From a virus, in the IMG/VR virus record IMGVR_UViG_3300022839_000077, positions 1 through 28,815 of that record: a DNA stretch of 28,815 bases. One strand, given 5' to 3'. Below the pieces are notes generated by a model. It was not told where the DNA came from. It made no database searches and saw nothing but the letters and a program-made list of their open reading frames with translations. The translations under genes and the position numbers were made by a program. Shown piece after piece: positions 1,322 to 22,319 of the stretch; the first letter of the stretch is position 1; each line of letters opens with the position of its first letter.

Positions 1322-1807
1322 TCAATCAGAAGGCGCACTGTCATTTTGAGCGCGCTCCAAACGCAGCCACGTCACGGCCTCTTGAGCCGCCTCGCGAGCA
1401 CGTTGGGTTGTGTAATTCGTGCAAGTGCGCCCCCGCGCCCACTCGCGAACCATTCGCGCTCGGCCCATCGTCGCGGGCTTGCAATACTGAAGCGGCGGAC
1501 CCTCGCGAACCCACGCTGCTCCAAAAGCACGAACCGCGTCTTGAACCAGAGCTTCCGAAGCATCAAGCGCGTCAAGCGCCGCGTTCAACGCAACACGGCT
1601 TGCGTCCAACTGCTCAGCGCGGGTCAGATCACGAGAAATGGGCGCAGGCTGCGCCGCGTCGTTTTGGGCGCCATCCGGCCGCCATTGCTGAAATGCGGGC
1701 GTTGGGCTCCCCTCACGCCCCGCCTCCAGCGCGCCAAGCCGACGCTCGATCTCGTCAAGCCGGCAAAGCTGCTCCAAAACCGACGTGCGGGGCACCCACG
1801 CGCTCAT
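1322..1807 (-). CDS. Unknown protein between terminase subunits
   Basis: This 161-residue protein starts at ATG 1807, overlapping the TGA of the small terminase gene by four bases (ATGA), and ends 24 bases before the large terminase start. The N-terminal 30 residues include a leucine/acidic stretch (VLEQLCRLDEIERRLGALEA) that could form a coiled coil. The middle is Ala/Asp-rich helix and the C-terminus is basic (RARMVREWARGR). No known family is recognised. Its fixed place between terS and terL and its coiled-coil start suggest an accessory packaging or assembly role, by context only. Confidence 0.7.
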   Translation of the reverse strand: MSAWVPRTSVLEQLCRLDEIERRLGALEAGREGSPTPAFQQWRPDGAQNDAAQPAPISRDLTRAEQLDASRVALNAALDALDASEALVQDAVRAFGAAWVREGPPLQYCKPATMGRARMVREWARGRTCTNYTTQRAREAAQEAVTWLRLERAQNDSAPSD

Positions 1808-2289
1808 GCCCCGTCATCCTCGATCTCCGCCGCAAGGTCCGCCGCAACCAACGCAGGGTCCGCCGTCGCAACCTGAACGCCCACGATCATCGCCAGCTCC
1901 TTGCCCATCGCGTCGTCGCTCATCGACCCGACATCCAGCGTCACGTCAACCTTCTGACGCTCGCCGTAGTGCTTCGGGCTCAACCGCGCCGCCGCCCACT
2001 TGCGCGCGTCAATCCGGTTTCGCGCCTTCTGCGGGTCTTTCTCGGTGTCGGCAATGTCGATGATGTCGCCGAAAACCGTGTGAGCCGCCTCCTCAACCGC
2101 AGACGCATACCTCGCCGCCAGCGCAGGGTCCGCACGGCACGCCACCCGCCAGGACTCGCGAGACGGCAGATCAGGATCTTCGCAAATCTTGCGGATCGCT
2201 TCAGCGTCGGAAACGCGCGACAAAATCGTCTCGATCGCCTCATCCGTCATGGGGTTCTTGATCTGCAAACCAGCCTCCGACACGAACAT
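1804..2289 (-). CDS. Terminase small subunit
   Basis: This is the DNA-recognition subunit of the packaging terminase. With the chosen start at ATG 2289, the product is 161 residues. It has an N-terminal HTH-type region (DEAIETILSRVSDAEAIRKI, then ESWRVACRADPALAARYASA) typical of small terminase proteins. The central RNRIDARKWAAARLSPKHYG is a hallmark I associate with this family, and an acidic C-terminal tail follows. A shorter start at ATG 2250 is possible. The open frame continues upstream to 2694 but becomes Arg/Gly low complexity and is unlikely to be translated. The gene is coupled by ATGA to the next one. Confidence 0.85.
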   Translation of the reverse strand: MFVSEAGLQIKNPMTDEAIETILSRVSDAEAIRKICEDPDLPSRESWRVACRADPALAARYASAVEEAAHTVFGDIIDIADTEKDPQKARNRIDARKWAAARLSPKHYGERQKVDVTLDVGSMSDDAMGKELAMIVGVQVATADPALVAADLAAEIEDDGA

Positions 2290-2488
2290 GCCCCGCCAAG
2301 GCGAAGCTAGGGTAAAGCGCAATTCTTGAATATGGCAAGAAAGCACCAATTCACGACGCATGTCAACGCCGATGTTCATGGCGCGGCAAGTGTTAAGCGC
2401 AAAAATCCAGACCCGTCTGCGAAGGGAACGCGGCCCATGGGGGGTGTGGGCACCGGTGACGGCCCCGTCGCGCGCTCGCCTCGGCCGA

Positions 2489-2524
2489 CCCCCACCCCCC
2501 CTCGTTCGACCCCCCCGCCCCCCC
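2489..2524 (-). other. G-quadruplex-like tract (G-runs on minus strand)
   Basis: Four runs of C on the plus strand (5, 7, 7 and 7 bases at 2489-2493, 2495-2501, 2510-2516 and 2518-2524) give four closely spaced G-runs on the minus strand. The minus strand is the sense strand for terS, so the tract would lie in the terS leader if transcription starts upstream. The pattern fits a G-quadruplex; folding is not shown. Confidence 0.45.
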
Positions 2525-2718
2525 TCGACATTTCGGGGGCCCTTGTCGCCGCGCCTGCGTGCCGCTGCGTCGCCGCGCGTCGGCCGCCACGTCGCCGCGT
2601 CGCTGGCATCCACGTCGCCGGCCGCCGCATCGCACGTCGCCATGCCGCGCCGCACCATTGGCGTGCTGCGCTGCACAATTCCAATAATCGCCATTATGTC
2701 AAATTATGTATTGAGCAA

Positions 2719-3105: not shown

Positions 3106-3837
3106 TCACGCGGCGACGATGCCGGCGTTGACTGCGACGACGTTGAGGCCTTCGCGCAGATGGGCGAGGGCGTTGGGCGCGCCGATGCGGCCGAGGTGCG
3201 AGACGACGCTGCGCTCCTCGACGACGACGTGGAGGACGATGGCGCGCTGTTCGCGGGTGAGGCGCTGGAGGAGGCGGGTTGCGGTTGTGACGCGGCGGAG
3301 GGCGGCGAGCACGGGCGCGGTGTGGTCGGGCGAGGTATCGACGGCCTCGGCGAGCCACGGTGCGCCGCTGGCGGCTGCTTCGTGGATGGCGCTGGACAGG
3401 GCGCGTGCTGCGTCGGACTGGCGTGGGGTGATTGCGCCGCGCCGTTCGAGGGCGATCCATGGGGCCGGCGTGCGGCGACGCTGCGGCGCGACGTCGGGCG
3501 TCTCGGGGTTGATCGTCTCGACCATGCCGGCCGGGAGGGCTTGCGGATGCTTGGCGAGGCGTCTTGCTTCGGTTCTGCCTCGTGGCGTGATCCGCAGGCG
3601 GATGGAGCCGACGCCGGGATCTTCGGCGTTGGCCCACTTCGCCTGGACGACGTGCGCCACGGCCTGGACGGCCCACCGGCGCGGGTCTGGCGTTCCATCT
3701 GGCGCTAGGGCGATGCCGAGGGTCGCCATCTCGCGACGCGGGTTGTGGGTGATCCATTGGAGGATCGCGAGGGTCTGCGACTGGGCGATCGTGAGGCGAT
3801 TTTGCGTCGGGTTGTCGGTCGGTGTTTTGGGCTGCAT
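3106..3837 (-). CDS. Winged-helix-like protein, possible regulator or origin binder
   Basis: This 243-residue protein starts at ATG 3837 with a good GGAG seven or eight bases upstream. A longer frame back to 3966 merely translates the 9-bp repeats. The N-terminal 100 residues look like a MarR-type winged helix: a helix LTIAQSQTLAILQWITHN, then a wing ending in RLRITPRGRTEARRLA. The last 60 residues (LTREQRAIVLHVVVEERSVV, then ALAHLREGLNVVA) resemble the DUF6456-type C-terminal helical domain of alphaproteobacterial proteins; this is a weak recognition. It stands alone on the minus strand, beside the repeat array, so I infer a DNA-binding role there or in regulating the divergent operons. It may instead be purely a transcription factor. 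Confidence 0.65.
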   Translation of the reverse strand: MQPKTPTDNPTQNRLTIAQSQTLAILQWITHNPRREMATLGIALAPDGTPDPRRWAVQAVAHVVQAKWANAEDPGVGSIRLRITPRGRTEARRLAKHPQALPAGMVETINPETPDVAPQRRRTPAPWIALERRGAITPRQSDAARALSSAIHEAAASGAPWLAEAVDTSPDHTAPVLAALRRVTTATRLLQRLTREQRAIVLHVVVEERSVVSHLGRIGAPNALAHLREGLNVVAVNAGIVAA

Positions 3838-3946
3838 GGGGTTGCTCCGATGTGGAGCGGCGTGTGGTCTGGCGTTGCCATTATCGCAGGCGATTTTGGC
3901 GTGTCTAGGCGACGCTGAAATTTCCGGCGTTCGGGGCGTTTTGAGC

Positions 3947-4260
3947 AAGATGACCAAGATGACCACGATTACCGTCCGTGCCCATGTCCGTGCCTCTACA
4001 CGTAGGGGTCTTTACACCCGGAGGGGGTAATAGTGGTCATCTTGGTCATCTTGTATATATAAGGGAGAGAGGGGGGGGGTTATATATATATAACAGCCTC
4101 TTAGCCTTTCCCCATAAGGGGAGCAAGATTACCAAAACAGCATGGTCATCTTGATGGTCATCTTGGTCATCTTGCCCCTAACGCACGACGAAATGGGAAT
4201 ACGATCACAGGCAAGATGACCAGATTAGCAAGATGACCATCAAGATGACCCGGTAATCTT
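3947..4260. repeat. Iteron-like array of AAGATGACC, candidate replication origin
   Basis: Twelve copies of a 9-bp unit are present. Perfect AAGATGACC starts at 3947, 3956, 4213, 4230 and 4242. The complement GGTCATCTT starts at 4035, 4044, 4144, 4156 and 4165. One-base variants AAGATTACC (4125) and GGTAATCTT (4252) mirror each other. Several copies abut head to tail with a 9-bp period; others face each other across the AT-rich segment. This layout is typical of iteron origins, where an initiator binds arrays beside a melting region. An auto-regulatory operator cluster is the main alternative. Confidence 0.7.
4054..4093. other. AT-rich and homopurine tract inside the repeat array
   Basis: An AT run TATATATAA (4054-4062), a pure purine tract ending in nine G (4061-4079) and a palindromic AT run TTATATATATATAA (4080-4093) lie between the two halves of the repeat array. 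In this GC-rich genome such a patch is the natural candidate for a DNA-unwinding element; the purine tract could also form triplex DNA. Confidence 0.5.
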
Positions 4261-4397
4261 GCTATCGGTTTTCGCGCCCCAAACGCGGATTATTTTTGCG
4301 GACCAGTGCGATTTATCTTGACCGGATCAGTGCGCAGGCGCAGGGTGATTTCCAGAGGCGGCACACACCGGGCCGCGACCACCAAGGAGCCTCCGCG

Positions 4398-4637: not shown

Positions 4638-4640
4638 TGA

Positions 4641-4694
4641 TGATCCGCTCCGGCCTGCGCCTCCCACCAGAGACGCAGCGCGGAACTGATCCAC
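4641..4694 (+). repeat. Intercistronic stem-loop cassette, copy 1 (type I)
   Basis: Left arm CTGCGCCTC (4655-4663), short loop, right arm GAGACGCAG (4670-4678) with one C-A mismatch. It is flanked by TGATCCGCTCCGGC on the left and CGCGGAACTGATCCAC on the right. TCCG and CGGA add an outer stem. A GGGAG ribosome site and ATG 4718 follow. Confidence 0.8.
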
Positions 4695-4717
4695 ACAACC
4701 CAACAGGGAGAGACCCC

Positions 4718-5416
4718 ATGAACATTGAGCACGAAGAAACCCGCCGCGACGTGAGCGTCAAGATCTACCTCGACCCGGAGGGCATGAGCGTTTCGGACGT
4801 GGAACCCGCCGCGCCGATCCGCATCATCAGCAACGACTGGCGCGGCGGCTATAATGACGTCTCGGGGTCTCAGTTTGGCGGCGTGCTGTCGGCGGAGCAT
4901 ATCGCGATCGTGGAGGTTGACGGCTGGCGCGCTCTGGTGGAGCGCGAGCACGGCGACGACACAGGCGAGACAACGGGCGGTCGTAAATGGTGCGAAGCAA
5001 ATGGCGCGCAAGGCTACGCCCGGCATCATGGCGCGACGTGGCGCGGCGTGTTCTCGGCGCTGGAGGGGCTGGACGGCCGCGCGCTGGCGCGCGTCAGAAC
5101 CGCGACGATTTGGGACGATCCGCGCGGGCGCAGCGTTTTCTACGCGGCTTGGGACCAAGCGGAGATGGACGCATACGCGGGATGTAAAAACGCGGCGCCG
5201 GCGATCGAGGGCATGCGCTCGGCGCTGGAGGGCGAGGTCTACGGGTTTATCGTCGATGAGGGCGGACCCGACGAGGATAGTTGCTGGGGATTTGTGGGCG
5301 CCGCGAAAGATTGCCTTTTTGAAGCGCAATCCGTCGCGGACCAGATAGCGCATCGGCGCGAGGTCGCCGCGCTGGAGATGGTCGCAGCCTCGCGCCTTGA
5401 TATGGCGCCCGCCTGA
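4718..5416 (+). CDS. Unknown acidic protein
   Basis: The 232-residue product starts at ATG 4718, placed by GGGAG eight bases upstream; the frame before it runs through the stem-loop. The protein is acidic and mixed alpha/beta, with recognisable stretches such as GWRALVEREHGDD, RSVFYAAWDQAEMDAY and WGFVGAAKDCLFEAQSVADQ, but no family is recognised. It forms a one-gene block between two stem-loop cassettes. The final TGA is the first base triplet of the next cassette. Confidence 0.75.
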   Translation: MNIEHEETRRDVSVKIYLDPEGMSVSDVEPAAPIRIISNDWRGGYNDVSGSQFGGVLSAEHIAIVEVDGWRALVEREHGDDTGETTGGRKWCEANGAQGYARHHGATWRGVFSALEGLDGRALARVRTATIWDDPRGRSVFYAAWDQAEMDAYAGCKNAAPAIEGMRSALEGEVYGFIVDEGGPDEDSCWGFVGAAKDCLFEAQSVADQIAHRREVAALEMVAASRLDMAPA

Positions 5417-5468
5417 TCCGTTGCGGCCTGCGCCTCTCGCAATGAGGCGCAGCGCGGAACTGATCCAC
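5414..5468 (+). repeat. Intercistronic stem-loop cassette, copy 2 (type I)
   Basis: It begins with the TGA of the preceding gene. Arms CTGCGCCTC (5428-5436) and GAGGCGCAG (5444-5452) pair perfectly over nine bases with a 7-base loop. The conserved CGCGGAACTGATCCAC follows, then AAGGAG and ATG 5487. The left flank reads TCCGTTGCGGC instead of TCCGCTCCGGC. Confidence 0.85.
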
Positions 5469-5486
5469 CAACCAAGGAGCCACGCC

Positions 5487-5957
5487 ATGGGAACCGCAAC
5501 ACGCAAACAGCGCGTCACGATCGCCGCCTACGCTCGCCAACGCGGCGACGCCTACCGCGTCCGTGCCGAGGGGCATGTGGAATTTTTGGGCACGATCCCG
5601 CACACAAACGTCACTGGTTGGTGGATGTTCGCGAGCAGCCCCGACGAGGCAGTCAACCTAATATCGCGGGAGGGGCGCCGCGCCGCGCCCATGATCGACG
5701 CGCCTTTCACCACGCCCGACTTCGCGCCTGTGATCGACGCAGACACCGCGCGCGTGTTTCTGACCGCACTGGACGCGGCGGGATTGCTCTACCACCCCGA
5801 GGATCGCGCGGACGACTGCCTGTCCTGCTACGGCCTGAGCGTGCACGACCTGCGCGCCATCGAGGGCGCCATGCGCTCGACGCACTTGCACCTGCCCGAC
5901 CCGTGCGATTTTTGCCTGACGCTGCCCGGCATGGCCGACCCGCAGGTGCCGGCATGA
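5487..5957 (+). CDS. Unknown protein with Cys pairs
   Basis: The 156-residue product starts at ATG 5487 after AAGGAG. The N-terminal part is beta-rich and includes a short WWMFASSPDEAVNLISREG segment, common in small phage proteins that sense or process a substrate. The C-terminal half has DDCLSC and DPCDFC, four Cys that could bind zinc. The overall family is not recognised. It is the first of three genes joined by ATGA overlaps (5954, 6325), so these are probably made in fixed ratio. Confidence 0.7.
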   Translation: MGTATRKQRVTIAAYARQRGDAYRVRAEGHVEFLGTIPHTNVTGWWMFASSPDEAVNLISREGRRAAPMIDAPFTTPDFAPVIDADTARVFLTALDAAGLLYHPEDRADDCLSCYGLSVHDLRAIEGAMRSTHLHLPDPCDFCLTLPGMADPQVPA

Positions 5958-6328: not shown

Positions 6329-6819
6329 CCACCACGACGCTCAAATCTCTCGCCACCATTCGCACGCTGATCGAGCAGGGCTGGACGCAGGGCAGTTTCA
6401 GGGGCGAGGACAACCCCGAGAAACCGCCCTGCTACTGCCTGATGGGCGCCGTCTATCACGAGGCCGGCGCCGATGTGCTCGACACCGTTGCCTGCTCAAA
6501 AATCTCTCGCGGCGCCGTGACTTTTGCCCTCGCCGCTGCGGTTCGCGCCGTCGCACCACTCCAGGACGGCCCCGTCAGGTCCCCGCGCGCTTCGGTCATA
6601 CACTTCAACGACGAGATTGCGCTGGAAAGGGGGCACGTTCTCGACGTGATCGACGCCGCAATCGCCCCCATCGCCGACGCCATCGCCGCCTACCAGGCCA
6701 TCGCCGCTGCCCGCCTTGCCCGCGACGTCGCCCGCGACGCTAATTTGTTTTGGCCAACACCCGAGCACGCTACCGCCATGTGCTCCGCCGAAAAGGCGCT
6801 CGCCGACCTCGAAGCCTGA
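6325..6819 (+). CDS. DUF6197-like protein
   Basis: The 164-residue product starts at ATG 6325 (ATGA overlap). Its pattern matches what I know of the DUF6197 family. It has a starting helix with IEQGWTQG; the Cys-containing CYCLMGAVYHEAG near residue 35; and a later HFNDEIALERGHVLDVIDAAI, equivalent to the conserved ND...V...AI part. The C-terminal 40 residues are Ala-rich helix. The family occurs in phages and actinobacteria with no established activity. The last DNA, encoding ADLEA, matches the end of the gene at 4398-4637. Confidence 0.7.
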   Translation: MTTTTLKSLATIRTLIEQGWTQGSFRGEDNPEKPPCYCLMGAVYHEAGADVLDTVACSKISRGAVTFALAAAVRAVAPLQDGPVRSPRASVIHFNDEIALERGHVLDVIDAAIAPIADAIAAYQAIAAARLARDVARDANLFWPTPEHATAMCSAEKALADLEA

Positions 6820-6868
6820 TCCGCTCCGGCCTGCGCCTCACCTAGAGGCGCAGCGCGGAACTGATCCA
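6817..6868 (+). repeat. Intercistronic stem-loop cassette, copy 3 (type I)
   Basis: It starts with the TGA of the preceding gene. Arms CTGCGCCTC (6831-6839) and GAGGCGCAG (6845-6853) enclose a 5-base loop; CGCGGAACTGATCCA follows, then AAGGAG and ATG 6892. The left flank is identical to copies 1, 4 and 6. Confidence 0.85.
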
Positions 6869-6891
6869 GCACCAACCCAAGGAGCCACCCC

Positions 6892-7173
6892 ATGCCCAGC
6901 CTGTATTCCAACGACGCCGCCCGCGTCACCTACGTCGCCGCCCTCGCCGCCCGCGACGATCTGGCCGTCGCCGACGCCGCCGCCCGCGCCGCCTACGTCG
7001 CCTACGTCAACGCCCGCGACGCCGCCAGCGACGCCGCCCGCGCCGCCCACGACGCCCGCGCCATCGCCATCGCCGCACGCGACGCCGCCAGCGACGCTCA
7101 CACCCGATCCTACTCCTCCGACATCGCCGCATCCAAAGCCACGGCCGCCTACAAGGCCCACGGCGACGCCTGA
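6892..7173 (+). CDS. Alanine-rich helical small protein (paralog group)
   Basis: This 93-residue protein, from ATG 6892 with AAGGAG in front, is dominated by Ala with regularly spaced Arg and Asp (repeats such as ARDAASDAARAAHDARA). It is predicted to be one long amphipathic helix or coiled coil. The DNA is close to a GAC-GCC-GCC repeat, so the gene may have arisen or grown by slippage. Two more genes in this operon (7240-7509 and 9420-9677) and a 33-codon gene (10536-10637) have the same style. It forms a one-gene block between two cassettes. Function unknown. Confidence 0.65.
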   Translation: MPSLYSNDAARVTYVAALAARDDLAVADAAARAAYVAYVNARDAASDAARAAHDARAIAIAARDAASDAHTRSYSSDIAASKATAAYKAHGDA

Positions 7174-7223
7174 TCCGCTCCGGCCTGCGCCTCGCACTGA
7201 GGCGCAGCGCGGAACTGATCCAC
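7171..7223 (+). repeat. Intercistronic stem-loop cassette, copy 4 (type I)
   Basis: It begins with the TGA of the gene before it. Arms CTGCGCCTC (7185-7193) and GAGGCGCAG (7199-7207) enclose a 5-base loop, followed by CGCGGAACTGATCCAC, AAGGAG and ATG 7240. Confidence 0.85.
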
Positions 7224-7239
7224 AACCAAGGAGCACCCC

Positions 7240-7509
7240 ATGACCCTCGCCGTCAAAGCCAAAGCCGACGCCTACAACCGCGCCATGATCGCCCACGACG
7301 ACGCTAGCGCCGATTTGGCCACACACTACGCTGCCCGATCCTGCGACCGCGCCGCACGCGCCACCTTCGACGCCACCTTCGACGCCTTCGACGCTGCCTG
7401 CGAGGATCTGGCCAAAGTCGCCGACGCATACATCGCCGCCCGCCGCGCATCGGACGACCGCGCCCACGCCGCCGTCAGAGCCGCAATCGCCGCGCGGGTG
7501 CAGGCATGA
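7240..7509 (+). CDS. Alanine-rich helical small protein (paralog group)
   Basis: The 89-residue product has repeated Ala/Asp/Arg helix (AARATFDATFDAFDAACEDLA), with more aromatic residues than its neighbour at 6892. It is likely a helical bundle or coiled coil. It starts at ATG 7240 after AAGGAG and ends in an ATGA overlap with the next gene. The tail ARVQA and its junction with the next ATG resemble the end of the gene at 5954-6328 (EVQA), which suggests shared block ends. Function unknown. Confidence 0.65.
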   Translation: MTLAVKAKADAYNRAMIAHDDASADLATHYAARSCDRAARATFDATFDAFDAACEDLAKVADAYIAARRASDDRAHAAVRAAIAARVQA

Positions 7510-8886: not shown

Positions 8887-9348
8887 ATGACCCTCCCATT
8901 CGCCCAATTCATGTCGTCAAAAGGCACGCTCGACGCGCTCGCGTCGATGGCGTCGGCTCGCCGATTGCTCGAATTGGCTGACGCGCAACGCGGATTGAGG
9001 GACGAGGCGGACGAGGCGGACGACGCCGCCGCCTACGCTGTCGCGGCCACTACAGTGCGAGCGTTGCAGTCTGCTGGCGTTGCCATGGCGACGACTGCAA
9101 CCAGCCAGATCGCGCTGCGGCTGTCGCGGCGCTACGGGTTTTCGTCCAAAACGAAACTGCGCAGCGAGCACGATGACGTCCTGTCGTGGGTGATGCGGAT
9201 GGGGACTGTTCCCACGAATTTGCTCAAAATCAGCGAGACGCGCAACGACGACGACCTGGTGAAAATCGCCTACGTTGCGATCACGGTCGATATGCTGGCG
9301 TGTTACTCGTCTGAGGTTGATCTATTTTGGGACGCTTCCGCGACCTGA
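8887..9348 (+). CDS. Unknown helical protein
   Basis: The 153-residue product follows a strong AAAAAGGAG. It is mainly helical: an acidic N-terminal stretch (RGLRDEADEADDAAAY), a hydrophobic Ala/Thr helix, then a basic segment (LRLSRRYGFSSKTKLRSEHDD) and an acidic end. Arg/Lys groups suggest nucleic-acid contact, but this is only a guess from composition. Its stop TGA starts cassette copy 6. Confidence 0.6.
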   Translation: MTLPFAQFMSSKGTLDALASMASARRLLELADAQRGLRDEADEADDAAAYAVAATTVRALQSAGVAMATTATSQIALRLSRRYGFSSKTKLRSEHDDVLSWVMRMGTVPTNLLKISETRNDDDLVKIAYVAITVDMLACYSSEVDLFWDASAT

Positions 9349-9401
9349 GATCCGCTCCGGCCTGCGCCTCTCACCAGAGGCGCAGCGCGGAACTGATCCA
9401 C
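9346..9401 (+). repeat. Intercistronic stem-loop cassette, copy 6 (type I)
   Basis: TGA of the preceding gene, then GATCCGCTCCGGC; arms CTGCGCCTC (9362-9370) and GAGGCGCAG (9377-9385) with a 6-base loop; CGCGGAACTGATCCAC; AAAGGAG; ATG 9420. It carries two extra bases (TGAGATCC) at the left junction. Confidence 0.85.
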
Positions 9402-9419
9402 AACCAAAGGAGCCACCCC

Positions 9420-9677
9420 ATGAACGCCCACAACGCCTACGACGCCTCCCGCGACGCAGCGCGCGACGCCATCGCCGCCCTTTTTGCTGCCATGGAAGCC
9501 TCAAGTGTTGCGCGCGAGGCGGCCCGCAAAGCAGACGCCCACGCTCTTGAGGTCAACTCATTGGCCCGCAAAGCCCGCATGCGCGCCGACGTCGCTTGCC
9601 TTCGCGCCTACGACGCGACCGTTCAATTCAACGCCGCATGCGAGGCGCGCGGCGCAGCCAGCGAGGCGCAGCCATGA
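9420..9677 (+). CDS. Alanine-rich helical small protein (paralog group)
   Basis: The 85-residue product has the Ala/Arg/Asp helix style of the genes at 6892 and 7240 (YDASRDAARDAIAALF, then RAYDATVQFNAACEARGAASEA). It starts at ATG 9420 after AAAGGAG. A predicted long helix, with no catalytic residues apparent. First gene of the block 9420-10637. Confidence 0.6.
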   Translation: MNAHNAYDASRDAARDAIAALFAAMEASSVAREAARKADAHALEVNSLARKARMRADVACLRAYDATVQFNAACEARGAASEAQP

Positions 9678-11989: not shown

Positions 11990-12017
11990 GATCCGGGGGC
12001 GCCATGCGCCCCCGATC
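11990..12017. terminator. Palindrome between convergent operons, likely bidirectional terminator
   Basis: GGGGGCGC and GCGCCCCC pair across a 3-base loop, and flanking GATC pairs with GATC around one unpaired C. It lies exactly between the convergent ends at 11983 and 12016 and overlaps the stop of the leftward gene. There is no T-run on either side, so it may act as a Rho-assisted block instead of a classic intrinsic terminator. Confidence 0.5.
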
Positions 12018-14619
12018 ACTCCGCAGCCACCGCAAAATAGCGCTTTACCGAATGGCCCCCGATAACTGATGGCGTAAACTCGCCACGCAAGACCTCTTGC
12101 TCAACTAAAGATGCCATTATTTCATCCATGTCGCGCGCCTTTATTCCGCGAAACTTCCTCTTGATGTCTTGCCACAAAATCCCTTTGGACCCGCTCGCCA
12201 GCACCACCCGCTCGACCGCGTTCACGTTTCGCTCGGTCTCGTTGTCCGCGACAAACAGTGCGATATTGCGGATCATCACGCGCGCCGACCACCGCGCGAT
12301 GGCGTGCCCGATTTCGAAGTCGTCCATCGTGATGAGCGGCTTGAACGGCGAGCGGCCCACGGCGGACACCAGCGCGATTTTGGTGGCGTTTTCGGCGACG
12401 CGGCGCAGGATCGGGGCGGCGCCTTTGATGCCGTGCATCTCGGCATAGTCCGCACACCCCGCCATCGCACCACGCAAGCGCAGGCGGTGGGCCTCGGCGG
12501 CCGCGGTAATCGGCACCTCCATCGCGGACACGCCCAGCAACGTGGTTTGGTTGTGCCGCGTGATCGCGTCACCGATGGCCAGCATGTCGGCCTTCAATTC
12601 CGCGGTGATCTCGCCGCTGGGGTTTTTCATGCCCAGGTCGTCCAGCGGCAGAGCCATGAACCGCGCGACAGACCCATCCTCCAGCGCTGATGATCCGAAC
12701 GCTTGCCAGAACTGATCGGGCGTTGCGGCGCCGAACATGCACAGGTGGGGCGAGTCAATGACCGCGCTGGGACGTGATGCGTAGGCAGTGCCGGTGTAGG
12801 TCGTGTTGGCGGCGCTGTAGAGCGCGGTGAACTCGGTCAAGATCTGCCTGATGTGCCCGCCGGCGCCCACGGCCGTCATCTGTTGAAGCATGTGCCCGAA
12901 CTCATCAAGGAAGCAAACGCGCTGCGGCTGGGCTTCGATCATCTGAAGCAAGCCCGGCCCCGACGCGATCCTGTCGTTGCCGATAAAGGCGACATAGCCC
13001 GCTTCCGCCATCAGCGCTTTGGCCGGGCCCATGAGGCTTGTCTTGCCCTTGCCCGACCCGCCCAAGCCCACGATGTAGATGTTGGTCCGCAGCTTCGTGG
13101 TCGTCTCGTATCCGCGGCCCATGACGGCGCCGAGAAGCGGGATGGCGACGGACAGCCCGCCCGCCTCGGTGGCGACCGTCGAGCAGGCGTCGAGGTAGAC
13201 AGCGACCTGGCCAAGCAGGCCGGGGCAGTCTTCGCCGGGGTTCTGGATCGGAAACGGGCCCGGGTCATCCCCCACCAAGACCTCGAACTCGCGCTTGGTG
13301 GGGAGTGTCACCTTGAACACGTCCTGATTGGCGCGCGAGAGCGTGAAATTCGACGGCGTGTTGATCCATTTTTCCGCGTCGAACGGCTCTGGCTCCGGGT
13401 CGGGCTCGGGCGCGGCAGGCGGCGGCGGTGCGGGGGGCGTTGGCGGTGCGGGGGGCGTTGGCGGTGCAGGATCGGGCGTGAAGGCGCCCGTCTCGACGTC
13501 GAACGTGCCGCCGAGATCTCCGCCGGTCGGCTCTGGCGCGGGGATTGTCGGGGGGAGGATCGGATCTTTTTTCGGCTCGATCCTACCCTCTGGCGCCGGG
13601 GCGGCGGGCTCGTCGTGCAGACTCGAAATGTCAGGCCCATTTTCCACGCGGCAGAACGGTTTCAACCAGTCCATCGCGCCCATGAAGTCCAGGCTGACCG
13701 CCGCCATCACCACGTCGATCGCGGTGTAGCTGACGTTGGTTCCGAAATCGCGAATGCCGTTTGGCGTGATCCCGATGTTCGGGTTGCGCTCCGATGGCGT
13801 GCGTCCTGATCCCGATGGCCTCCACGACGCAACCGCAGACCACGCGCCGTTGCCGCGCTGGCGCGTCTTGGGCAGATTGAGCGCGGGCCACCAGGCATTG
13901 ATTGCGGCGGGCTCCAGCGCGCGCTCGTTGAGGCTGCGCGCGGCAGGCTTTTCCAGATCGGACAGCGTGGACGCATGGCCTAAGCCAAAATCGCCCAACG
14001 TCACCGCGCGGGGCTTGGCGCGGGTGATCTTCAGCGGAAGCAATGCGTGGTCGATGATCCCTGCAATGCCTTCAGGCAGCCGCGGCAGGTCACTGACCTC
14101 CACATCTTGCAGCGCCTCCGAGCCCAGCATCCAGACATAGGGCGCCTTGGTGTCGGGGTGGATCGTTGGCGGGAGAACCGACTGCGTGCCGTGCATCAGC
14201 AGCTCGACCACGATCGCGCCATCGGCGTCGTGCCATCGCAGCCGAGCGCCAAGCGTGTGCGCGTCCAGCGACGGTTGATAATAGCCGATCCAGCCCTTCG
14301 ACCCGCGCCGGCAGCATCGCGACCCTTCCACCGCCGTTTTGATCGCGCGGATCACGTCGGCGCGGTCGGTGTCCACATCGAGGCCGACGACCTTGCCGTG
14401 AGCGAGACCGATCCCCGCGTTGGGCCACGCCTCCCATGTGTCGGACAAAAAGTCCGGGGGTTGCTCGTCGCACCATTTCTGCCACGCCCCGAGGTTGCCC
14501 CACTCGCCCCCGCTGAACGAGCCGGGCACCTTGGAGCCGGGGCGGATCGGGATGACGTGATACCCCTGCTCGCGCAGAGACGCCGCCACGCTGGCATAGG
14601 GGGAGACGTGGCGAGCCAT
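12016..14619 (-). CDS. Bifunctional DNA primase/polymerase-helicase fusion
   Basis: The 867-residue protein fuses two replication activities. Residues about 5-190 form an archaeo-eukaryotic prim-pol domain: the metal-binding LDVDTD (D81, D83) and the later LPPTIHP (H154). This domain type can start and extend primers. A Pro/Glu/Pro-Ala linker (about 380-420) follows. The C-terminal half is a DUF3987-type P-loop ATPase/helicase with Walker A GLGGSGKGKT (about 516-525) and Walker B VCFLDEF (about 568-575). The last 80 residues could be a winged helix (ILWQDIKRKFRGIKARDMDE). It is the 3'-most gene of the leftward operon and probably the phage's replicative primase-helicase. The domain boundaries and the specific ATPase subfamily are estimates. 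Confidence 0.85.
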   Translation of the reverse strand: MARHVSPYASVAASLREQGYHVIPIRPGSKVPGSFSGGEWGNLGAWQKWCDEQPPDFLSDTWEAWPNAGIGLAHGKVVGLDVDTDRADVIRAIKTAVEGSRCCRRGSKGWIGYYQPSLDAHTLGARLRWHDADGAIVVELLMHGTQSVLPPTIHPDTKAPYVWMLGSEALQDVEVSDLPRLPEGIAGIIDHALLPLKITRAKPRAVTLGDFGLGHASTLSDLEKPAARSLNERALEPAAINAWWPALNLPKTRQRGNGAWSAVASWRPSGSGRTPSERNPNIGITPNGIRDFGTNVSYTAIDVVMAAVSLDFMGAMDWLKPFCRVENGPDISSLHDEPAAPAPEGRIEPKKDPILPPTIPAPEPTGGDLGGTFDVETGAFTPDPAPPTPPAPPTPPAPPPPAAPEPDPEPEPFDAEKWINTPSNFTLSRANQDVFKVTLPTKREFEVLVGDDPGPFPIQNPGEDCPGLLGQVAVYLDACSTVATEAGGLSVAIPLLGAVMGRGYETTTKLRTNIYIVGLGGSGKGKTSLMGPAKALMAEAGYVAFIGNDRIASGPGLLQMIEAQPQRVCFLDEFGHMLQQMTAVGAGGHIRQILTEFTALYSAANTTYTGTAYASRPSAVIDSPHLCMFGAATPDQFWQAFGSSALEDGSVARFMALPLDDLGMKNPSGEITAELKADMLAIGDAITRHNQTTLLGVSAMEVPITAAAEAHRLRLRGAMAGCADYAEMHGIKGAAPILRRVAENATKIALVSAVGRSPFKPLITMDDFEIGHAIARWSARVMIRNIALFVADNETERNVNAVERVVLASGSKGILWQDIKRKFRGIKARDMDEIMASLVEQEVLRGEFTPSVIGGHSVKRYFAVAAE

Positions 14620-14981
14620 CAGAAAGGAACCTGCTCAGACGCGAGGCGGCGCAGGGCCTCGGTGTAGAGGGTCACGAGCTGCGCGGCGTAGAGCAGGTAT
14701 TCGGCCTTGCTCAGCGCGGCGAGATCCGCGTGCCCGAACGTGGCGCTGGCGTATCGCCCGGCTCCCATCGCGGCCTCCTCGATCGCGGCGTCCTCAGCGG
14801 GCGTCAGCGTGACGTTTTTCGATCGCGCGTTCATGAAAATCTCCACACAGGCGTTGCTGCAAAAATGGAACGTCGTGGCCTTGCGGTCCTGCGGTTGGCT
14901 GAATGCGAACCCGCGGCTGGCGCGGGCGCAGATCACGCAGGGCGCGCAGGTCGGCCCCACCGGAAGGGCGCGGGCGTTCAT
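14619..14981 (-). CDS. DUF6511-like zinc protein
   Basis: The 120-residue product starts at ATG 14981, overlapping the stop of its neighbour (ATGA). The N-terminus has CVICARASRGFAFSQ and, later, FHFCSNAC, a treble-clef-like Cys pattern. The C-terminal half (LTPAEDAAIEEAAMGAGRYA, then GHADLAALSKAEYLLY) fits the DUF6511 family. Members occur in phages of alphaproteobacteria beside replication genes; the activity is unknown. It touches the prim-pol gene by one base (TGATG). Confidence 0.7.
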   Translation of the reverse strand: MNARALPVGPTCAPCVICARASRGFAFSQPQDRKATTFHFCSNACVEIFMNARSKNVTLTPAEDAAIEEAAMGAGRYASATFGHADLAALSKAEYLLYAAQLVTLYTEALRRLASEQVPF

Positions 14982-15247
14982 ATCGACACCACAGGGCGCC
15001 GTTCGACGCGGGCGAGAGCGCGCACGCCCGCGTCCGTCATCACCGGATAGCCCGCGGGGCAGTAGTAGAGGTAGCCAGCGTTTTGGAGCGACTTGCAGAC
15101 GCGCCTGGCGTCCGCCGGGTGGCATTCCAAGCTGTTTGCCAGCGTGTTGATTTTTCCCGACGGAGGCGATTTTTCTGCTCGCCCGAACGCAATCAGCTTG
15201 TCTTCGATCGTGACCAGCGCGCGCAGCAGGGGGGGGATGTTGTTCAT
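14978..15247 (-). CDS. Small winged-helix-like protein
   Basis: The 89-residue product has a helix-turn-helix then wing (KINTLANSLECHPADARRV, CKSLQNAGYLYYC, then VMTDAGVRALARVE), the layout of small winged-helix DNA-binding proteins. It is coupled at both ends by ATGA overlaps. The gene upstream (15244-15588) has the same style, so the two may be related. It may regulate the leftward operon or assist replication; nothing here separates these. Confidence 0.6.
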   Translation of the reverse strand: MNNIPPLLRALVTIEDKLIAFGRAEKSPPSGKINTLANSLECHPADARRVCKSLQNAGYLYYCPAGYPVMTDAGVRALARVERRPVVSI

Positions 15248-16698: not shown

Positions 16699-16925
16699 AC
16701 CGCGTCCTCCAGATGGCTCGCGTAATGGTGCTGCCACTCAAAGGGGCCGGTCCCCGCTGCCTTCTGGAGCCACCGCACGCGGATCTGACCTTGCATCGAG
16801 TGATAGCCTCTTGGCGGAAGCACGGTGCCGATCGACCCCTTCTGGAAAAACTCCAGGAAGGGCGCCGGGTAGAGGTGGACGCAGTCCTGCGCGATGCGCA
16901 CTTTATCGCCTGGGGAGAATTTCAT
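16695..16925 (-). CDS. Small SH3/KOW-like protein
   Basis: The 76-residue product begins MKFSPGDKVRIAQDC and has a following GSIGTVLPP and GQIRVRWLQKA. This looks like a small beta-barrel of SH3 or KOW style, with the typical 'G-D-x-V' entry and a Gly turn. Such domains bind proteins or nucleic acids. The start at ATG 16925 is set by the ATGA overlap with the helicase gene; a longer frame to 17099 is a shadow. Confidence 0.6.
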   Translation of the reverse strand: MKFSPGDKVRIAQDCVHLYPAPFLEFFQKGSIGTVLPPRGYHSMQGQIRVRWLQKAAGTGPFEWQHHYASHLEDAV

Positions 16926-18541
16926 TCTGCCGCCTCCTGCTCGTTGGTTTCGTAGGCCACCTGACCAATTCGCCAAAAATCGCCGTCTTTGACGCGGATA
17001 ACCCAGCAGGGTCGCCGCAACTCGCCTTGGCGTTCGTGCGCTTCCTTGGTGGACGTCGGTGGTGATGCGGTGGCGTCGATCGCGTGGCTTCGCCACCACT
17101 GGATTGCGTGGTTGAACGCGCGGCTCTGGTGGTCAAAACAGCTCCACTCTGAGATGCGTTTTTTTCCGACGAGGTATTCGGTCCGCAGGCTGTCTGGCGC
17201 ACCTGTCTTTCGGTGGATCGAATAAGCCACGTCGCGCACCTCTTCCCAATCGGGCTGCGGGGCGTTCATCGACATTATTGCCTCGGTGCCGGCCGTGTCG
17301 TTGATCCCGATTTCGGGCGGCGGGAACTCATGGCCGCAAATCGGGCACTCGCGCGCCGCGATAAGGCACAGCGCCGAGCACTCGGGGCATTCCTTCGTCG
17401 GCGCCTCGCCGGGCTCCTCGTTTTTCTTTTTCTCGCCGGGCATTTTGATTGCGTCCACCGGCCCGTGCCGATCGACGTTTCCCGCGAAATCGAGCACGAG
17501 GCAGTCCACTTTGCCGGGTGCGCACCGCATTCCGCGCCCGGCGATCTGCACATAGAGCCCGATCGACTGCGTGGGGCGCAGCATCAGGATCAGGTCGGTG
17601 CGAGGCGCGTCGAACCCGGTGGTGAGCACGCCAACCGACGTCAACGCCTGAAGCTGGCCTGCCTTGTATTGCGCCAGATATGTCGCGCGCTGCGCCGCCG
17701 GCGTGTCTCCCGTTACCGTCTCCGCGGTGACGCCACGCTCGCGCAGCCCGTCCCGAACCGACAGCGCGTGCGAGACGTTGCAGCAAAACGCCAGCCAGCT
17801 TTTCCTATCCCCGGCCAGCGCCACACTTTCGTCCAGCGCTGCGCTGGTAACGGCATCGGTGTCGAACCGCGCCGCCATTTCGGCCTCGATGAAATCTCCG
17901 CCGCGCTTTTTCAGCCCCGACAAATCGAACACCGCGTCGGGTCGCTTTGAGATCAGAGGCGAGAGAAATCCGCGCTCGACCAACATTTTGATCGCGATCT
18001 CGTAGCAAATTCCGTCAAACAGGGCGCCTTCGCCCATGTCCAGCCGCCCGCTATCCAGGCGGTAGGGCGTCGCGGTCAAACCGATGAATTTCACCTTCGG
18101 GTTGACCGCGATCAGCGCCTTAATCACAGCGCGATAGGTTGTTGCCCCCTTGGACGGGATCAGGTGGGCCTCATCAACGATGACGAGATCCCAGAAGCCC
18201 ACTGCGCCGCGCTCGATCAGGCGCACGAACGACTGCACGCCCGCGAACGTCACCTGACCGAGCCTTTTGCGCCCCAAGCCAGCGGAGTAGATGTCGGCCG
18301 GCGCCGCTGGCCACGCGCGCATCAGCGCCGTGAAGTTTTGGGCGATCAGCTCCTTGACGTGGGTGAGGCACAAGACGCGCGTTTTGGGGAACGCCTCGAC
18401 GGCTGTTTTGATAATGCCGGCGAGGATCACCGACTTCCCGGAGCCTGTTGGCGCGACGACGAGCGGGTGGCCGCGCTGTTCGCGGAACCAATCGAATACC
18501 GCCGCTTGCGCATCAAGCTGATAATCGCGAGCGACGATCAT
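16922..18541 (-). CDS. SF2 DEAH-box helicase with zinc ribbon
   Basis: The 539-residue product starts at ATG 18541, giving an ATGA overlap with the nuclease gene; the frame to 18727 is out of context. Superfamily 2 motifs are in order: Walker A APTGSGKS (30-37), DEAH (123-126), TAT (156-158) and motif VI QIAGRGMR (332-339). The layout is that of UvrB/RecG/RadD-like helicases that unwind DNA or remodel protein-DNA complexes. A four-Cys zinc ribbon follows (CPEC at 385-388 and CPIC at 399-402), then a C-terminal domain I do not recognise. It lies beside the exonuclease, so a role in recombination-linked replication is likely. Confidence 0.85.
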   Translation of the reverse strand: MIVARDYQLDAQAAVFDWFREQRGHPLVVAPTGSGKSVILAGIIKTAVEAFPKTRVLCLTHVKELIAQNFTALMRAWPAAPADIYSAGLGRKRLGQVTFAGVQSFVRLIERGAVGFWDLVIVDEAHLIPSKGATTYRAVIKALIAVNPKVKFIGLTATPYRLDSGRLDMGEGALFDGICYEIAIKMLVERGFLSPLISKRPDAVFDLSGLKKRGGDFIEAEMAARFDTDAVTSAALDESVALAGDRKSWLAFCCNVSHALSVRDGLRERGVTAETVTGDTPAAQRATYLAQYKAGQLQALTSVGVLTTGFDAPRTDLILMLRPTQSIGLYVQIAGRGMRCAPGKVDCLVLDFAGNVDRHGPVDAIKMPGEKKKNEEPGEAPTKECPECSALCLIAARECPICGHEFPPPEIGINDTAGTEAIMSMNAPQPDWEEVRDVAYSIHRKTGAPDSLRTEYLVGKKRISEWSCFDHQSRAFNHAIQWWRSHAIDATASPPTSTKEAHERQGELRRPCWVIRVKDGDFWRIGQVAYETNEQEAAE

Positions 18542-19524
18542 TCCTCGATCCTGACTGGCCCATCCGTCCATGTTGATCCATCGACCATTCGATAGGTGAT
18601 CGTCATCGCCTCGGGGTCCGCGTCGATCTGCTCGCCGGGGATCAGGTCGGGCAGGTGCAGGTGCGTCGGGCAAATCGCCCCGTCGCGCTGCTCCAGCGGC
18701 GTCAGCGGCTTGTCGAGATGCGCGCAATGCCCGTGCCCGCCCGCCGTGAACGAAAAATGGGCGCAGGTGCGGCAGTGCATCCGCGGCATGGCGGCGTCAA
18801 AGCACCGCCCTTGGTGCGGGCAATAACGGCAGGGGGGCCGCTTGCGCGCAGCCTCGGTCTGCGCCTCTGTCAGCCCCAACAGCAGGCCTGGTGGCGCGTG
18901 GTGGGTGTCCACGATCCCGGCGATCCGTGCCCCCTGCCGCGCCAGCACAGCGTCGTCTGGCCGGATGCGCTCGATCAGGATGTCGCGATCATCCCGGTTG
19001 AGCGCGATGTAAAGCCCGCGCGTAGCGGCGGTGCCGTGGATCGCGCCGTGCAAGCCGTGCCAATGCTCGGGCAGGGCCTTTTCCAGCCCGTGCTTTTTGA
19101 CCGCGCGGAAATTGGCCGCCGTCAGCGATTTGCACATCAGGGCATGGACCGCCTTCGGCGCCTCGACCACGCCCGTAGCAAGCCCGTCGCAGCGGCCTTG
19201 CACGGCTCCGTCGAACAGCGAGAACCGCCATGGCGATCCGCGGTCATCGCTGGCCACCTCGACATGAACCCCCGCCAACGCGAGGGCCGAGATCAGCGTG
19301 CCCTTGTCCAGCGCGGCCTGCTCTTGCAGCGCGATGCCCTTGCCGTCTCTGCGCTCGGGCGGCGACGCCCAGCGGTGCGTCAGAAATATCGCCAGATCAC
19401 ATTCGGAGCCGAGCAGATGCACAGGCACGTTGACCGCCTCGGTGCGCGGCGTGCCTTGCGCTTGTGCGGCGAGAGCTTCCCAAATCGCGTTGACCGTCGG
19501 ATCGGGCAGAGAGATTTCAGCCAT
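18538..19524 (-). CDS. PD-(D/E)XK exonuclease-like protein with altered active site
   Basis: This 328-residue protein matches the phage PD-(D/E)XK/Cas4-type exonucleases of recombination operons. It has a catalytic-Asp-like GRCDG; a helix and strand GLYIALNRDDRDILIERIRP; and Cys-rich CRYCPHQGRC and CRTCAHF, with a later Cys, like the metal cluster of those proteins. Two usual signatures are changed. Where relatives have a strand ending in E-x-K, the text reads ALMCKS, so the Glu is Met. Where they have a Gln-rich HYAQMQ-like helix, it reads HWHGLHG. It may be catalytically impaired or strongly diverged. The start at 19524 overlaps its neighbour by eight bases. Confidence 0.75.
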   Translation of the reverse strand: MAEISLPDPTVNAIWEALAAQAQGTPRTEAVNVPVHLLGSECDLAIFLTHRWASPPERRDGKGIALQEQAALDKGTLISALALAGVHVEVASDDRGSPWRFSLFDGAVQGRCDGLATGVVEAPKAVHALMCKSLTAANFRAVKKHGLEKALPEHWHGLHGAIHGTAATRGLYIALNRDDRDILIERIRPDDAVLARQGARIAGIVDTHHAPPGLLLGLTEAQTEAARKRPPCRYCPHQGRCFDAAMPRMHCRTCAHFSFTAGGHGHCAHLDKPLTPLEQRDGAICPTHLHLPDLIPGEQIDADPEAMTITYRMVDGSTWTDGPVRIEE

Positions 19525-20225: not shown

Positions 20226-20927
20226 TCAGGTTGCCCACGACCCCACGGCGCCACCGGCTGCTGCCGGGTTCGGCGCGGGCGCTGCGGGCGTCTCGGGCTC
20301 AGGCGCAGCGGCTTCGCGCTCATCGGGCGGCGGTGCGGCCGCGGCGGGCGGAGTGGCTGCGGGGGCAGGCGGGGTCCATTTGCCCGCTGCGGGGGCTGCG
20401 GCACGCGCGGGGGCGTCGGTTGGCGTCCAGGCTTTTTTCACGGGCGCTGCGGTGGACGCGCCACCCGATGCGGGCCGCACCATGCCGTCGGGCATGAGAT
20501 GATACGTTGAGGCGTCGTGGTAGTTGGTGATTTTGTTTTTCAGCGGCGGCGGCGGGTTCATTTCCAAGTCAGTCTTGCTCGGCTTTTCAAACCCAACGTC
20601 AGCCCAGAAGGAAAGGCCTAGCACCTGGTCAAATCCCGAAACCTTGAGTCTCCCCACGGCTTGACAGAATGTGCGAAATTCACGCACCGCAATTTCAACC
20701 GTTGTCGGGTTCGGGTTCTCTATGTTGAACTTTTGCCAGATACGCCGACCTTTGTGTTCGCCATCGCTCACTTCAAAGATGATTTCGAAATAACTGCCGT
20801 CTTTTTTGCTTGTCTCCTTTTTCGACCCTTCAATGCCAATCATGATGTATTTTCCCCGTGGCAGGGCTCCAGGCGCCCGTATCGTGTCTCCTTCGGAGGC
20901 GTCGAACTCAAATCCAAAATCGCTCAT
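20226..20927 (-). CDS. DUF669-like ssDNA-binding protein
   Basis: This 233-residue protein starts at ATG 20927 behind AAGGA. Residues 1-140 fit DUF669 (phage ssDNA-binding-like): GKYIMIGIEGSKKETSKKDG, YFEIIFEVSDGEHKGRRIWQ, then FCQAVG. The remainder is an Ala/Pro-rich tail (residues about 150-233), longer than in most relatives and without the acidic tip of SSB proteins. Such proteins accompany single-strand annealing or RecA-like recombinases in phages. It sits directly downstream of the ATPase gene, as expected for that pair. Confidence 0.8.
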   Translation of the reverse strand: MSDFGFEFDASEGDTIRAPGALPRGKYIMIGIEGSKKETSKKDGSYFEIIFEVSDGEHKGRRIWQKFNIENPNPTTVEIAVREFRTFCQAVGRLKVSGFDQVLGLSFWADVGFEKPSKTDLEMNPPPPLKNKITNYHDASTYHLMPDGMVRPASGGASTAAPVKKAWTPTDAPARAAAPAAGKWTPPAPAATPPAAAAPPPDEREAAAPEPETPAAPAPNPAAAGGAVGSWAT

Positions 20928-20938
20928 TTTGTGATCCT

Positions 20939-21721
20939 TCAGCTTCCGGGCTGTGCGGGGAGGAACGGGGCGAGAGCGGCATAACCAGCGCCGCGCTTGA
21001 TGATAAGCCGCTCAGGGGCGTCGTAGCGGCATTTGGCGACGCAGAACGCCGGAGCGGAAAGCTCCAAAACGCGCTGCGCTCCGCCCTCTGCTTTGGTCGT
21101 CTTTTTCCCAAACCCGCCGGCGTCCTTTTCAACGACGGTTATCTGCTGGCGCAGAAAGCCGATGACGTCCATGTTGGCGGTCACGAATGCAAGCGCACGC
21201 TTATGCAGCCGCGGGCTGTGGCGCTTGTATTCGACGTTGGATTGGTCTGGCGCGGTAGTGATCTCATCGTGCGCGAGAAGCACGACGTTCATTTTCTTGG
21301 TGAGCCGCAGATAATCCAAGATCGAAAAAACGTGGTCCCAGTGAGCGTCTGTCGCGACATATCCTTTGCCGAAGCCGGCGTCTTCGATGTTCGTCCATTG
21401 GTTCACGGCGCATGTGTGCGCCCATATCAGCGTCTCCAGCGCGTCGAGGCAGTCGATTACGACGGTTTGAAAATCATGCTCGGCGCTGCCTAGAAGGGAA
21501 AGCGCCTCCGTCACCTCGTCGTATGAAGACATGGGCCCTTCTTCGGACGGCTTGAAGGTCGTCAACGCAAGCGACCCTGCCCCGTCCTCCGTCTGGATGA
21601 AGATCGGCTTCGGGAACTCGCTTGCCAGCGTCGTCTTGCCGGTCCCCGGGGGGCCGAAGATGAGGACGCGAGGGGGGTGGACTGCCCTCGTGGTGTGCAG
21701 TGCGTCAATCGAAAAGGCCAT
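20939..21721 (-). CDS. RecA-fold AAA ATPase (Sak4-like)
   Basis: The 260-residue product starts at ATG 21721 with AAGGAGAGG in front; the frame to 21946 is low complexity. It has Walker A GPPGTGKT (23-30), a Walker B-like TVVIDCLDALE near 100-110, and a Gln/Thr-containing segment with LLAHDEITTA, typical of the AAA_24/Sak4 group of phage recombination ATPases. These act with a DUF669-type SSB and an exonuclease, all encoded next to it, to catalyse strand annealing or exchange. Confidence 0.85.
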   Translation of the reverse strand: MAFSIDALHTTRAVHPPRVLIFGPPGTGKTTLASEFPKPIFIQTEDGAGSLALTTFKPSEEGPMSSYDEVTEALSLLGSAEHDFQTVVIDCLDALETLIWAHTCAVNQWTNIEDAGFGKGYVATDAHWDHVFSILDYLRLTKKMNVVLLAHDEITTAPDQSNVEYKRHSPRLHKRALAFVTANMDVIGFLRQQITVVEKDAGGFGKKTTKAEGGAQRVLELSAPAFCVAKCRYDAPERLIIKRGAGYAALAPFLPAQPGS

Positions 21722-21794
21722 GGCCCTCTCCTTGCATTTCGGGTGTGGAAAAAAGCGCCGGGCGGGTGGATGCCAGACCACCGCCGCGTGGATC

Positions 21795-22319
21795 TTATTC
21801 GGCGCCGGCACGGGCCGGGCCATCGTCGCCCGGCGTTTCAAACGGTCGGCCAGCAGGGCCAACCGTGATGACTGTTTTGTCGGTATCGCCCCAGATTTTG
21901 CGGGACGAGACGGGGTTCGCCTGGTTGTCGTCCAGATAGGCGACACCGACCAAGGCGTCCTCGACCAGCTTCAGGACATTGCTCCCGTCGGGATCAATTA
22001 TGTGGAGGGCTCCCATGCGCTCGGCGCGCTTTTTGGCGCTGAGGCTTTTGGGGACGGCGAACCAGAACGTGACGTCGAGGAACACCGCGCCGCTGCGCAA
22101 TGGGACGCCTGCATGGAGTGCGAGGCCGCGCAGTGCAGCGCGGCGCCCTTTGATCTTCTCGGGCAGTCGCGCGTGCTTCCCCCCAAGGTGAGGATGCGCC
22201 ATCGGGCGGCCAAGGTGCGTGAACGTGATCGCGTGCTGCGGCAGGTCGCCGTCACGCGCAATTCCTCCATCGGAACTGTTTTGCCGTGGTTCAGCCCCAT
22301 GGGAGATGGACTTCATCAT
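21795..22319 (-). CDS. RusA-like Holliday junction resolvase
   Basis: The 174-residue protein starts at ATG 22319 (ATGA overlap with the HTH gene). RusA-type features are present: ITFTHLGRP near 31-39, VTFWFAVPKSLSAKKR (83-98), the metal site IDPDGSNVLKLVEDAL (D111, N114, K117, D121) and AYLDDNQ (130-133) with K141 in RKIWGD. RusA cuts branched DNA left by recombination-dependent replication, and is metal-dependent. It is longer than the usual 120-residue RusA because of the N-terminal extension (about 30 residues) and a loop. Confidence 0.85.
   Translation of the reverse strand: MMKSISHGAEPRQNSSDGGIARDGDLPQHAITFTHLGRPMAHPHLGGKHARLPEKIKGRRAALRGLALHAGVPLRSGAVFLDVTFWFAVPKSLSAKKRAERMGALHIIDPDGSNVLKLVEDALVGVAYLDDNQANPVSSRKIWGDTDKTVITVGPAGRPFETPGDDGPARAGAE

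Follow-up and report, generated by a model that had tools for sequence, protein, structure and literature searches.

Known primase-dependent origins and the locus under study

Among the closest described systems, the ORF904 protein of pRN1 requires a 100-bp stem-loop (21-nt stem, 58-nt loop) that lies downstream of its gene, and the loop still works when moved (PMC4234260). The alpha protein of phage P4 binds the repeats of its origin with a winged helix (as cited in PMC4234260), and the PrimPol of NrS-1 starts at TTTGGTTA or GTG (PMC8718748). The authors of the pRN1 study also considered phage BIP-1, which encodes a related primase: repeats were found there and judged not to be the origin, and a stem-loop was proposed (PMC4234260).

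Here we analysed a stretch of 28,815 bases from a virus record (hereafter the window). It has no exact terminal repeat and is therefore probably a fragment. Judged from its sequence, the repeat-rich stretch 3946-4261 is very probably the place where the phage starts copying its DNA. We read it as an iteron-built stem-loop origin that is most likely bound by the PrimPol protein of the phage and displaced by more than 7 kb from the gene of this protein, and we give this reading a probability of roughly 0.8.

The coordinates of all relevant features are collected in Table 1. The terminase subunits are among the leftward genes, and so is a replication module with the order Sak4, DUF669, Cas4 exonuclease, RadD-like helicase and PrimPol-DUF3987 (ending at 12016). 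Over 7 kb, including the rightward operon, separate the array from the primase gene, and an array search found no array-like sequence directly downstream of the window's own primase. Hence the pRN1-type location directly downstream of the replication protein gene is not seen in the window, but it is seen in many relatives. GC skew over the window gave no support for an origin; it decides neither way, as the contig is incomplete and the local skew goes with the direction of the genes.

Some features elsewhere in the window were recorded as well. Five near-identical leaders of about 80 bp (4638-4723, 5410-5489, 6810-6897, 7164-7246 and 9346-9425) end at start codons of the rightward operon. Each comprises a GCGCCTC-loop-GAGGCGC hairpin (changed in one copy) and a ribosome site, and they look like a repeated regulatory leader. 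The TerL reading frame (506-1297) stops after the N-terminal ATPase domain, and the TerL of MW202785 is also annotated as two ORFs; a frameshift, an intron or a split gene are possible. At 26755-26825, a 20-nt inverted repeat with a 31-nt loop and a copied segment nearby (TGGAAACTGTCAC) resembles a fold-back duplication, and a degenerate tandem repeat (24478-24649) is located within ORF 23812-25056.

Table 1. Features of the window that bear on the candidate origin and its initiator (strand: +, rightward or direct; -, leftward or inverted).
Feature	Position	Strand	Basis or remark
Terminase small subunit (TerS)	1804..2694	-	Pfam Sf6_terminase; array 1.25 kb upstream of its start
Orphan gene next to the array	3106..3837	-	No family, no homologue in relatives
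Gene-free divergent region, 560 bp, between leftward gene 3106-3837 and rightward operon from 4398	3838..4397	.	ORF list, sequence
Stem-loop 1, left arm: two tandem CAAGATGACC plus ACGATTACC	3946..3973	+	28 nt, 96% complementary
Stem-loop 1, loop: 52 nt, two GTG and two CAC triplets	3974..4025	+	Comparable loops in relatives
Stem-loop 1, right arm: two inverted tandem copies	4026..4053	-	Repeat and inverted-repeat search
AT-rich patch (TATATATA, (TA)6) with G9; presumed unwinding element	4054..4093	.	Sequence; G/C-run enrichment in relatives
CAGCCTCTTAG, matching the CAR-N2-4-STTR motif (CAG..CTTAG)	4094..4104	+	Motif follows the AT-rich patch in relatives
Variant repeat CAAGATTACC	4124..4133	+	Sequence match
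Inverted repeat 2, left arm: three inverted copies at 4144, 4156, 4165	4144..4174	-	Repeat search, inverted repeat, fold
Inverted repeat 2, right arm: three direct copies at 4212, 4229, 4241	4212..4250	+	Repeat search, inverted repeat, fold
Variant repeat CAAGATTACC, inverted	4252..4261	-	Sequence match
Predicted initiator: AEP PrimPol (15-179), DUF3987 MCM-like AAA+, C-terminal winged helix (about 794-863)	12016..14619	-	Pfam, AlphaFold2, structure comparison
RadD-like SF2 helicase	16922..18727	-	Replication module; in 82/90 relatives
Cas4-type exonuclease	18538..19524	-	Replication module; in 71/90 relatives
DUF669 protein	20226..20927	-	Replication module; in 61/90 relatives
Sak4-like ATPase	20939..21946	-	Replication module; in 61/90 relatives

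Architecture of the repeat array

An earlier note on this DNA had described five direct and five inverted perfect copies of a 9-mer together with a mirrored pair of variants, in a gene-free setting with AT-rich runs and a nine-G tract. Every position proved exact: AAGATGACC occurs at 3947, 3956, 4213, 4230 and 4242 on the plus strand and at 4035, 4044, 4144, 4156 and 4165 on the minus strand, and the AAGATTACC variants are found at 4125 (+) and 4252 (-). Likewise, the region 3838-4397 between two ATGs is without a credible gene, and TATATATA (at 4054), (TA)6 (at 4081) and G9 (4071-4079) are all present. What had to be corrected is the unit. Each of the ten perfect copies can be lengthened to the 10-mer CAAGATGACC / GGTCATCTTG, with a one-base overlap between tandem copies, so that the repeat is 10 bp long and not 9 bp; furthermore, two long inverted repeats had been overlooked.

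If up to one mismatch is allowed, the window contains 17 matches while 4.0 are expected, and none of 100 dinucleotide shuffles reached 17. Twelve short, specific repeats are clustered within 316 bp of non-coding DNA, as is characteristic of iteron origins. No exact or near DNA match to the array was obtained in annotated phages. The IMG/VR matches to CAAGATGACCAAGATGACC were single tandem pairs outside any array, and longer patterns gave no match there.

The elements follow each other in a defined order: inverted tandem pairs that form a stem-loop, the TATATATA/G9 patch, the CAG..CTTAG motif and a second inverted repeat. The arms of inverted repeat 1 (3946-3973/4026-4053, 28 nt, 96%) delimit a stem-loop spanning 3946-4053, and those of inverted repeat 2 lie at 4144-4172/4222-4250 (29 nt, 93%). 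As single-stranded DNA, both fold far better than shuffled sequences (z -8.6 and -11.4, respectively). In double-stranded DNA, they might be no more than symmetric sites for a protein rather than hairpins. A comparison with Rfam gave only eukaryotic microRNA models far under their cut-offs, and such models score any long hairpin.

The only (TA)4 or longer runs and the only G9 run of the window are those at 4054-4092, and its lowest-GC 300 bp (46%) fall inside 3838-4397. An AT-rich element (TATATATA and (TA)6, 4054-4092) that adjoins the repeats is a further characteristic of iteron origins, with a presumed role in unwinding. Because G/C runs of at least 8 are 29-fold enriched 3' of the primase genes of relatives, the nine-G tract probably belongs to the element. 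GTG and CAC triplets occur in the loop of the window and in nearly all loops of the relatives, a recurrence of little weight because such loops are GC-rich and related.

Recurrence of the layout in relatives

Neither gene 3106-3837 nor TerS nor the primase as single sequence recovered relatives from viral contigs, and a primase alignment was needed to find them. The resulting profile search delivered 75 viral and 34 prokaryotic-genome loci, which after removal of duplicates gave 90 loci including phage records, all of them with the primase by construction of the sample. Rhizobium phage RHph_TM3_3_14B and the Synechococcus phages Ssp-JY40 and Yong-M3-232 have an annotated module of the same kind and order. 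In these three phages, a blind search for clustered 9-mers detected a mixed-orientation array, with a different repeat each, shortly 3' of the primase. Further arrays located about 20-120 bp 3' of the primase match are built from TTCCTTCAA, TTCTTTCAA, AATTCCTCA, ATCCCTCAA, GAAAGTTCA, AATTCCAAA and others. Array-bearing relatives comprise Rhizobium, Synechococcus and many Rhodobacterales phages and prophages; the 9-mers differ while the layout is kept.

In 44 of 81 distinct relatives, the best mixed-orientation array of the locus falls in the stretch of 320 bp that follows the primase stop. This stretch contains at least five copies in both orientations in 53 of the 81, compared to 208 of 8644 control windows. 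Such counts overstate independence, since the positive loci are for the most part close Rhodobacterales relatives of one another. Roughly a third to half of the relatives have no array under these criteria. Inverted repeats with a score of at least 14 and a loop of 30-90 nt were found in 39/81 downstream regions and in 0/243 control windows. Considering long hairpins in 1.53 Mb of relatives, 34 of 37 lie no more than 520 nt beyond the primase; the window has only two, both of them in the array.

The arrays share a common plan. Tandem copies come first, then a spacer of roughly 45-95 nt, in many cases rich in G, and inverted copies; these are followed by an AT-rich stretch, a CAR-N-STTR motif, a single copy and, after a gap of about 10-20 nt, inverted copies again. 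The window, Ssp-JY40 and one relative (L096) agree nearly element for element. The latter has the 10-nt gap and AACAAGCACTTA as in the window layout, with its array 0.3 kb upstream of its primase. We searched 3.5 Mb on both strands with a five-element layout descriptor, which was chosen after some loci had been seen and was shaped partly on the window itself; it matched only primase-linked arrays, that of L096 and the window array, while block-shuffled controls gave 0 matches. With the same reservation of a partly window-shaped descriptor, the window array follows the plan from tandem repeats, spacer, inverted repeat and AT patch to the single copy, short gap and inverted copies. The CAR-N2-4-STTR motif, picked post hoc, occurs in 14 of 34 relatives while 2.4 are expected.

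With the helicase as an independent query, 28 further loci were obtained. In L131/L132, L139, L140, L144, L145 and L146, arrays or hairpins of this kind follow the primase or lie close to it; in L141 the distance is 3.1 kb. Contig L145 carries the same replication genes and relatives of the TerS (34%) and TerL (45%) of the window. Its array is found between primase and TerS, 1.35 kb upstream of the latter, and the corresponding distance in the window is 1.25 kb. The array thus stays in the same position with respect to the terminase genes; in the window, however, the operon lies between it and the primase.

Two more arrays were noted in these loci. A second mixed-orientation array of six copies (GGTGGTAAC) lies about 1.4 kb beyond the origin-like array of one relative (L026:13938-14088). 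Microcystis phage MJing1, the terminase of which is related to that of the window, has ACCCTGACC copies arrayed in both orientations next to the primase gene (L019:40402-40616).

The candidate origin proposed in the earlier note is thus supported, because the same architecture recurs beside a homologous primase gene in many phages. The note had also named an array missing from relatives that keep the replication genes as speaking against an origin. This is not what we observed: the letters change and the design is kept. In the open-access literature searched, we found neither a description of PrimPol-linked iteron arrays in phages nor published experiments on any of these arrays.

Candidate initiator and relation to known systems

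The product of gene 3106-3837 had been suggested as the binder of the array. However, comparisons with Pfam, PHROG, NCBIfam and phages gave no match for it, and its single-sequence fold is uninformative (pLDDT 43). Its role as initiator is not supported: a homologue is present in 0 of the 90 primase-relative loci, many of which have arrays. The accompanying claim that the prim-pol/helicase has no obvious site here is probably wrong, because arrays travel with this protein family. In relatives, the arrays usually adjoin the primase gene. Such recurrence beside a replication-starting gene points to its PrimPol product as the opener of the array.

Pfam detects a Prim-Pol domain (PF09250) in the product of 12016-14619 and no TOPRIM-type primase domain. 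At the C-terminus, AlphaFold2 predicts a helix-helix-helix-strand-strand winged helix with a pLDDT of about 90. The AAA+ part (DUF3987) resembles MCM helicases in structure comparison (Z 19, rmsd 3.6 over 261 residues). MCM chains were the only ones listed, since one AAA+ domain crowded out AEP primases and SF3 helicases; consequently, the comparison says nothing on the PrimPol domain, and an SF3 match was not seen in this MCM-dominated list. A sequence-profile search pointed to ORF904 for the PrimPol part (E 0.02) and to RPA32 winged helices for the C-terminus (E 0.2), neither of which is significant alone. Pfam lists DUF3987 as a family of unknown function, and an MCM-like AAA+ fold is predicted for it here within a PrimPol protein. 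These findings suggest that DUF3987, in fusion with PrimPol, acts as an MCM-like origin helicase.

We propose the following picture of the element. Arranged as inverted tandem pairs, the iterons would also serve as the stem of an extended stem-loop; behind it come the AT/G-tract as presumed unwinding element, the CTTAG-type motif and another set of inverted iterons. As initiator, the PrimPol/MCM-like AAA+/winged-helix protein that the phage itself encodes (12016-14619) is the most likely. The CAAGATGACC copies would be bound through its C-terminal winged helix. Its AAA+ domain would assemble on the AT-rich patch and melt it, or would extrude the hairpin, and its PrimPol domain would then prime where the strand is exposed, perhaps at the GTG/CAC triplets of the loop or at the CTTAG motif. 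The rightward operon would have separated the origin from its usual place directly 3' of the primase gene. Binding, melting, priming and direction are inferred; the scheme follows the analogy with pRN1 (a required, movable stem-loop), P4 (a winged helix on iterons) and NrS-1 (a defined start sequence).

Alternatively, the array could be the same origin and be bound by another protein of the module, either the RadD-like helicase or the small protein 14619-15125, which would recruit PrimPol. We consider this unlikely. The helicase is indeed the best conserved module protein (82/90 loci, up to 48% identity; 55% in L131), and UL9-like SF2 helicases are fused to some AEP primases (Kazlauskas et al., PMC5862659). 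However, it is the primase and not the helicase that usually adjoins the array, and the primase has a predicted winged helix, as P4 alpha and ORF904 do. In addition, the repeat type tracks the winged-helix type of the primase (TTGA with the RDRDEI-type, TTGG/TTGC with the KADDRMV-type), although this correspondence follows the phylogeny as a whole.

The divergent, promoter-sized gap might also suggest an operator, at which a phage regulator would control promoters on both sides, and a leftward sigma-70-like site is present at 3907-3880, no more than chance expects. Yet the arrays of relatives are located 3' of the primase between same-strand genes and not at divergent promoters, the array, with its twelve copies ordered as hairpins and its AT/G-tract core, does not look like an operator, and family scans recognised no regulator beside the array; this makes an operator quite improbable. 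Binding by the terminase small subunit, with the array as a packaging (pac/cos) site, would fit the distance to TerS in the window (1.25 kb) and in L145 (1.35 kb). But only 1 of the 90 primase relatives has even a weak homologue of the window-type TerS, many have arrays nevertheless, and the linkage is to the primase module, so we hold a packaging site to be very improbable. Partition sites are repeat arrays as well, and this general likeness is what a centromere-like site of a plasmid-like prophage would have in its favour, with no computed result beside it; among the scanned gene products of the window there is no ParA/ParB-like protein, and such a site seems hardly credible.

Taken together, we prefer the stem-loop origin opened by PrimPol. 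Beyond the window, we lean toward a new class of origins in alphaproteobacterial and cyanobacterial phages and prophages, in which one AEP PrimPol/MCM-like AAA+/winged-helix protein would act on an iteron array that forms a stem-loop with a conserved AT/G-tract/CTTAG core, the unit being movable from the initiator gene. As read from the DNA, what is new here is that a putative iteron origin and a putative PrimPol stem-loop origin are combined in one element. The result is a concrete, testable candidate for origin and initiator in a large set of phages that had no assigned start of replication. With their many repeat sequences, the origin/initiator pairs would lend themselves to studies of how origins and the specificity of winged helices change together, and they would suit the building of compact replicons in Rhodobacterales.

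Compared to the known systems, the locus is in each case similar and distinct. Like NrS-1, it would combine a phage PrimPol with a specific start sequence, which in NrS-1 is present in two opposite-strand copies in the middle of the genome and was proposed as the origin. In contrast, no iteron array is reported for NrS-1, its recognition sequence is TTTGGTTA, and its C-terminal ring helicase is of its own kind. With P4, for which we rely on the account in the pRN1 paper, the locus shares a multifunctional primase-helicase; the winged helix that binds the origin repeats in P4 is predicted here as well. The primase of P4 is of the TOPRIM type and that of the window an AEP, and a hairpin layout is not described for P4 in that account. 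The system of pRN1 (Sulfolobus) lacks iterons and employs an SF3 helicase, whereas DUF3987 with an MCM-like AAA+ fold is found here, and the loop of the window is not next to the initiator gene. Nevertheless, ORF904 likewise unites an AEP primase-polymerase, a helicase domain and a C-terminal winged helix (predicted here), and the stem-loops are of similar size (21-nt stem and 58-nt loop in pRN1, 28 and 52 nt here). Both may be displaced, contain GTG/CAC in the loop and are located downstream of the initiator gene, here in the relatives. The layout would thus link a P4-like recognition of iterons with a pRN1-like stem-loop.
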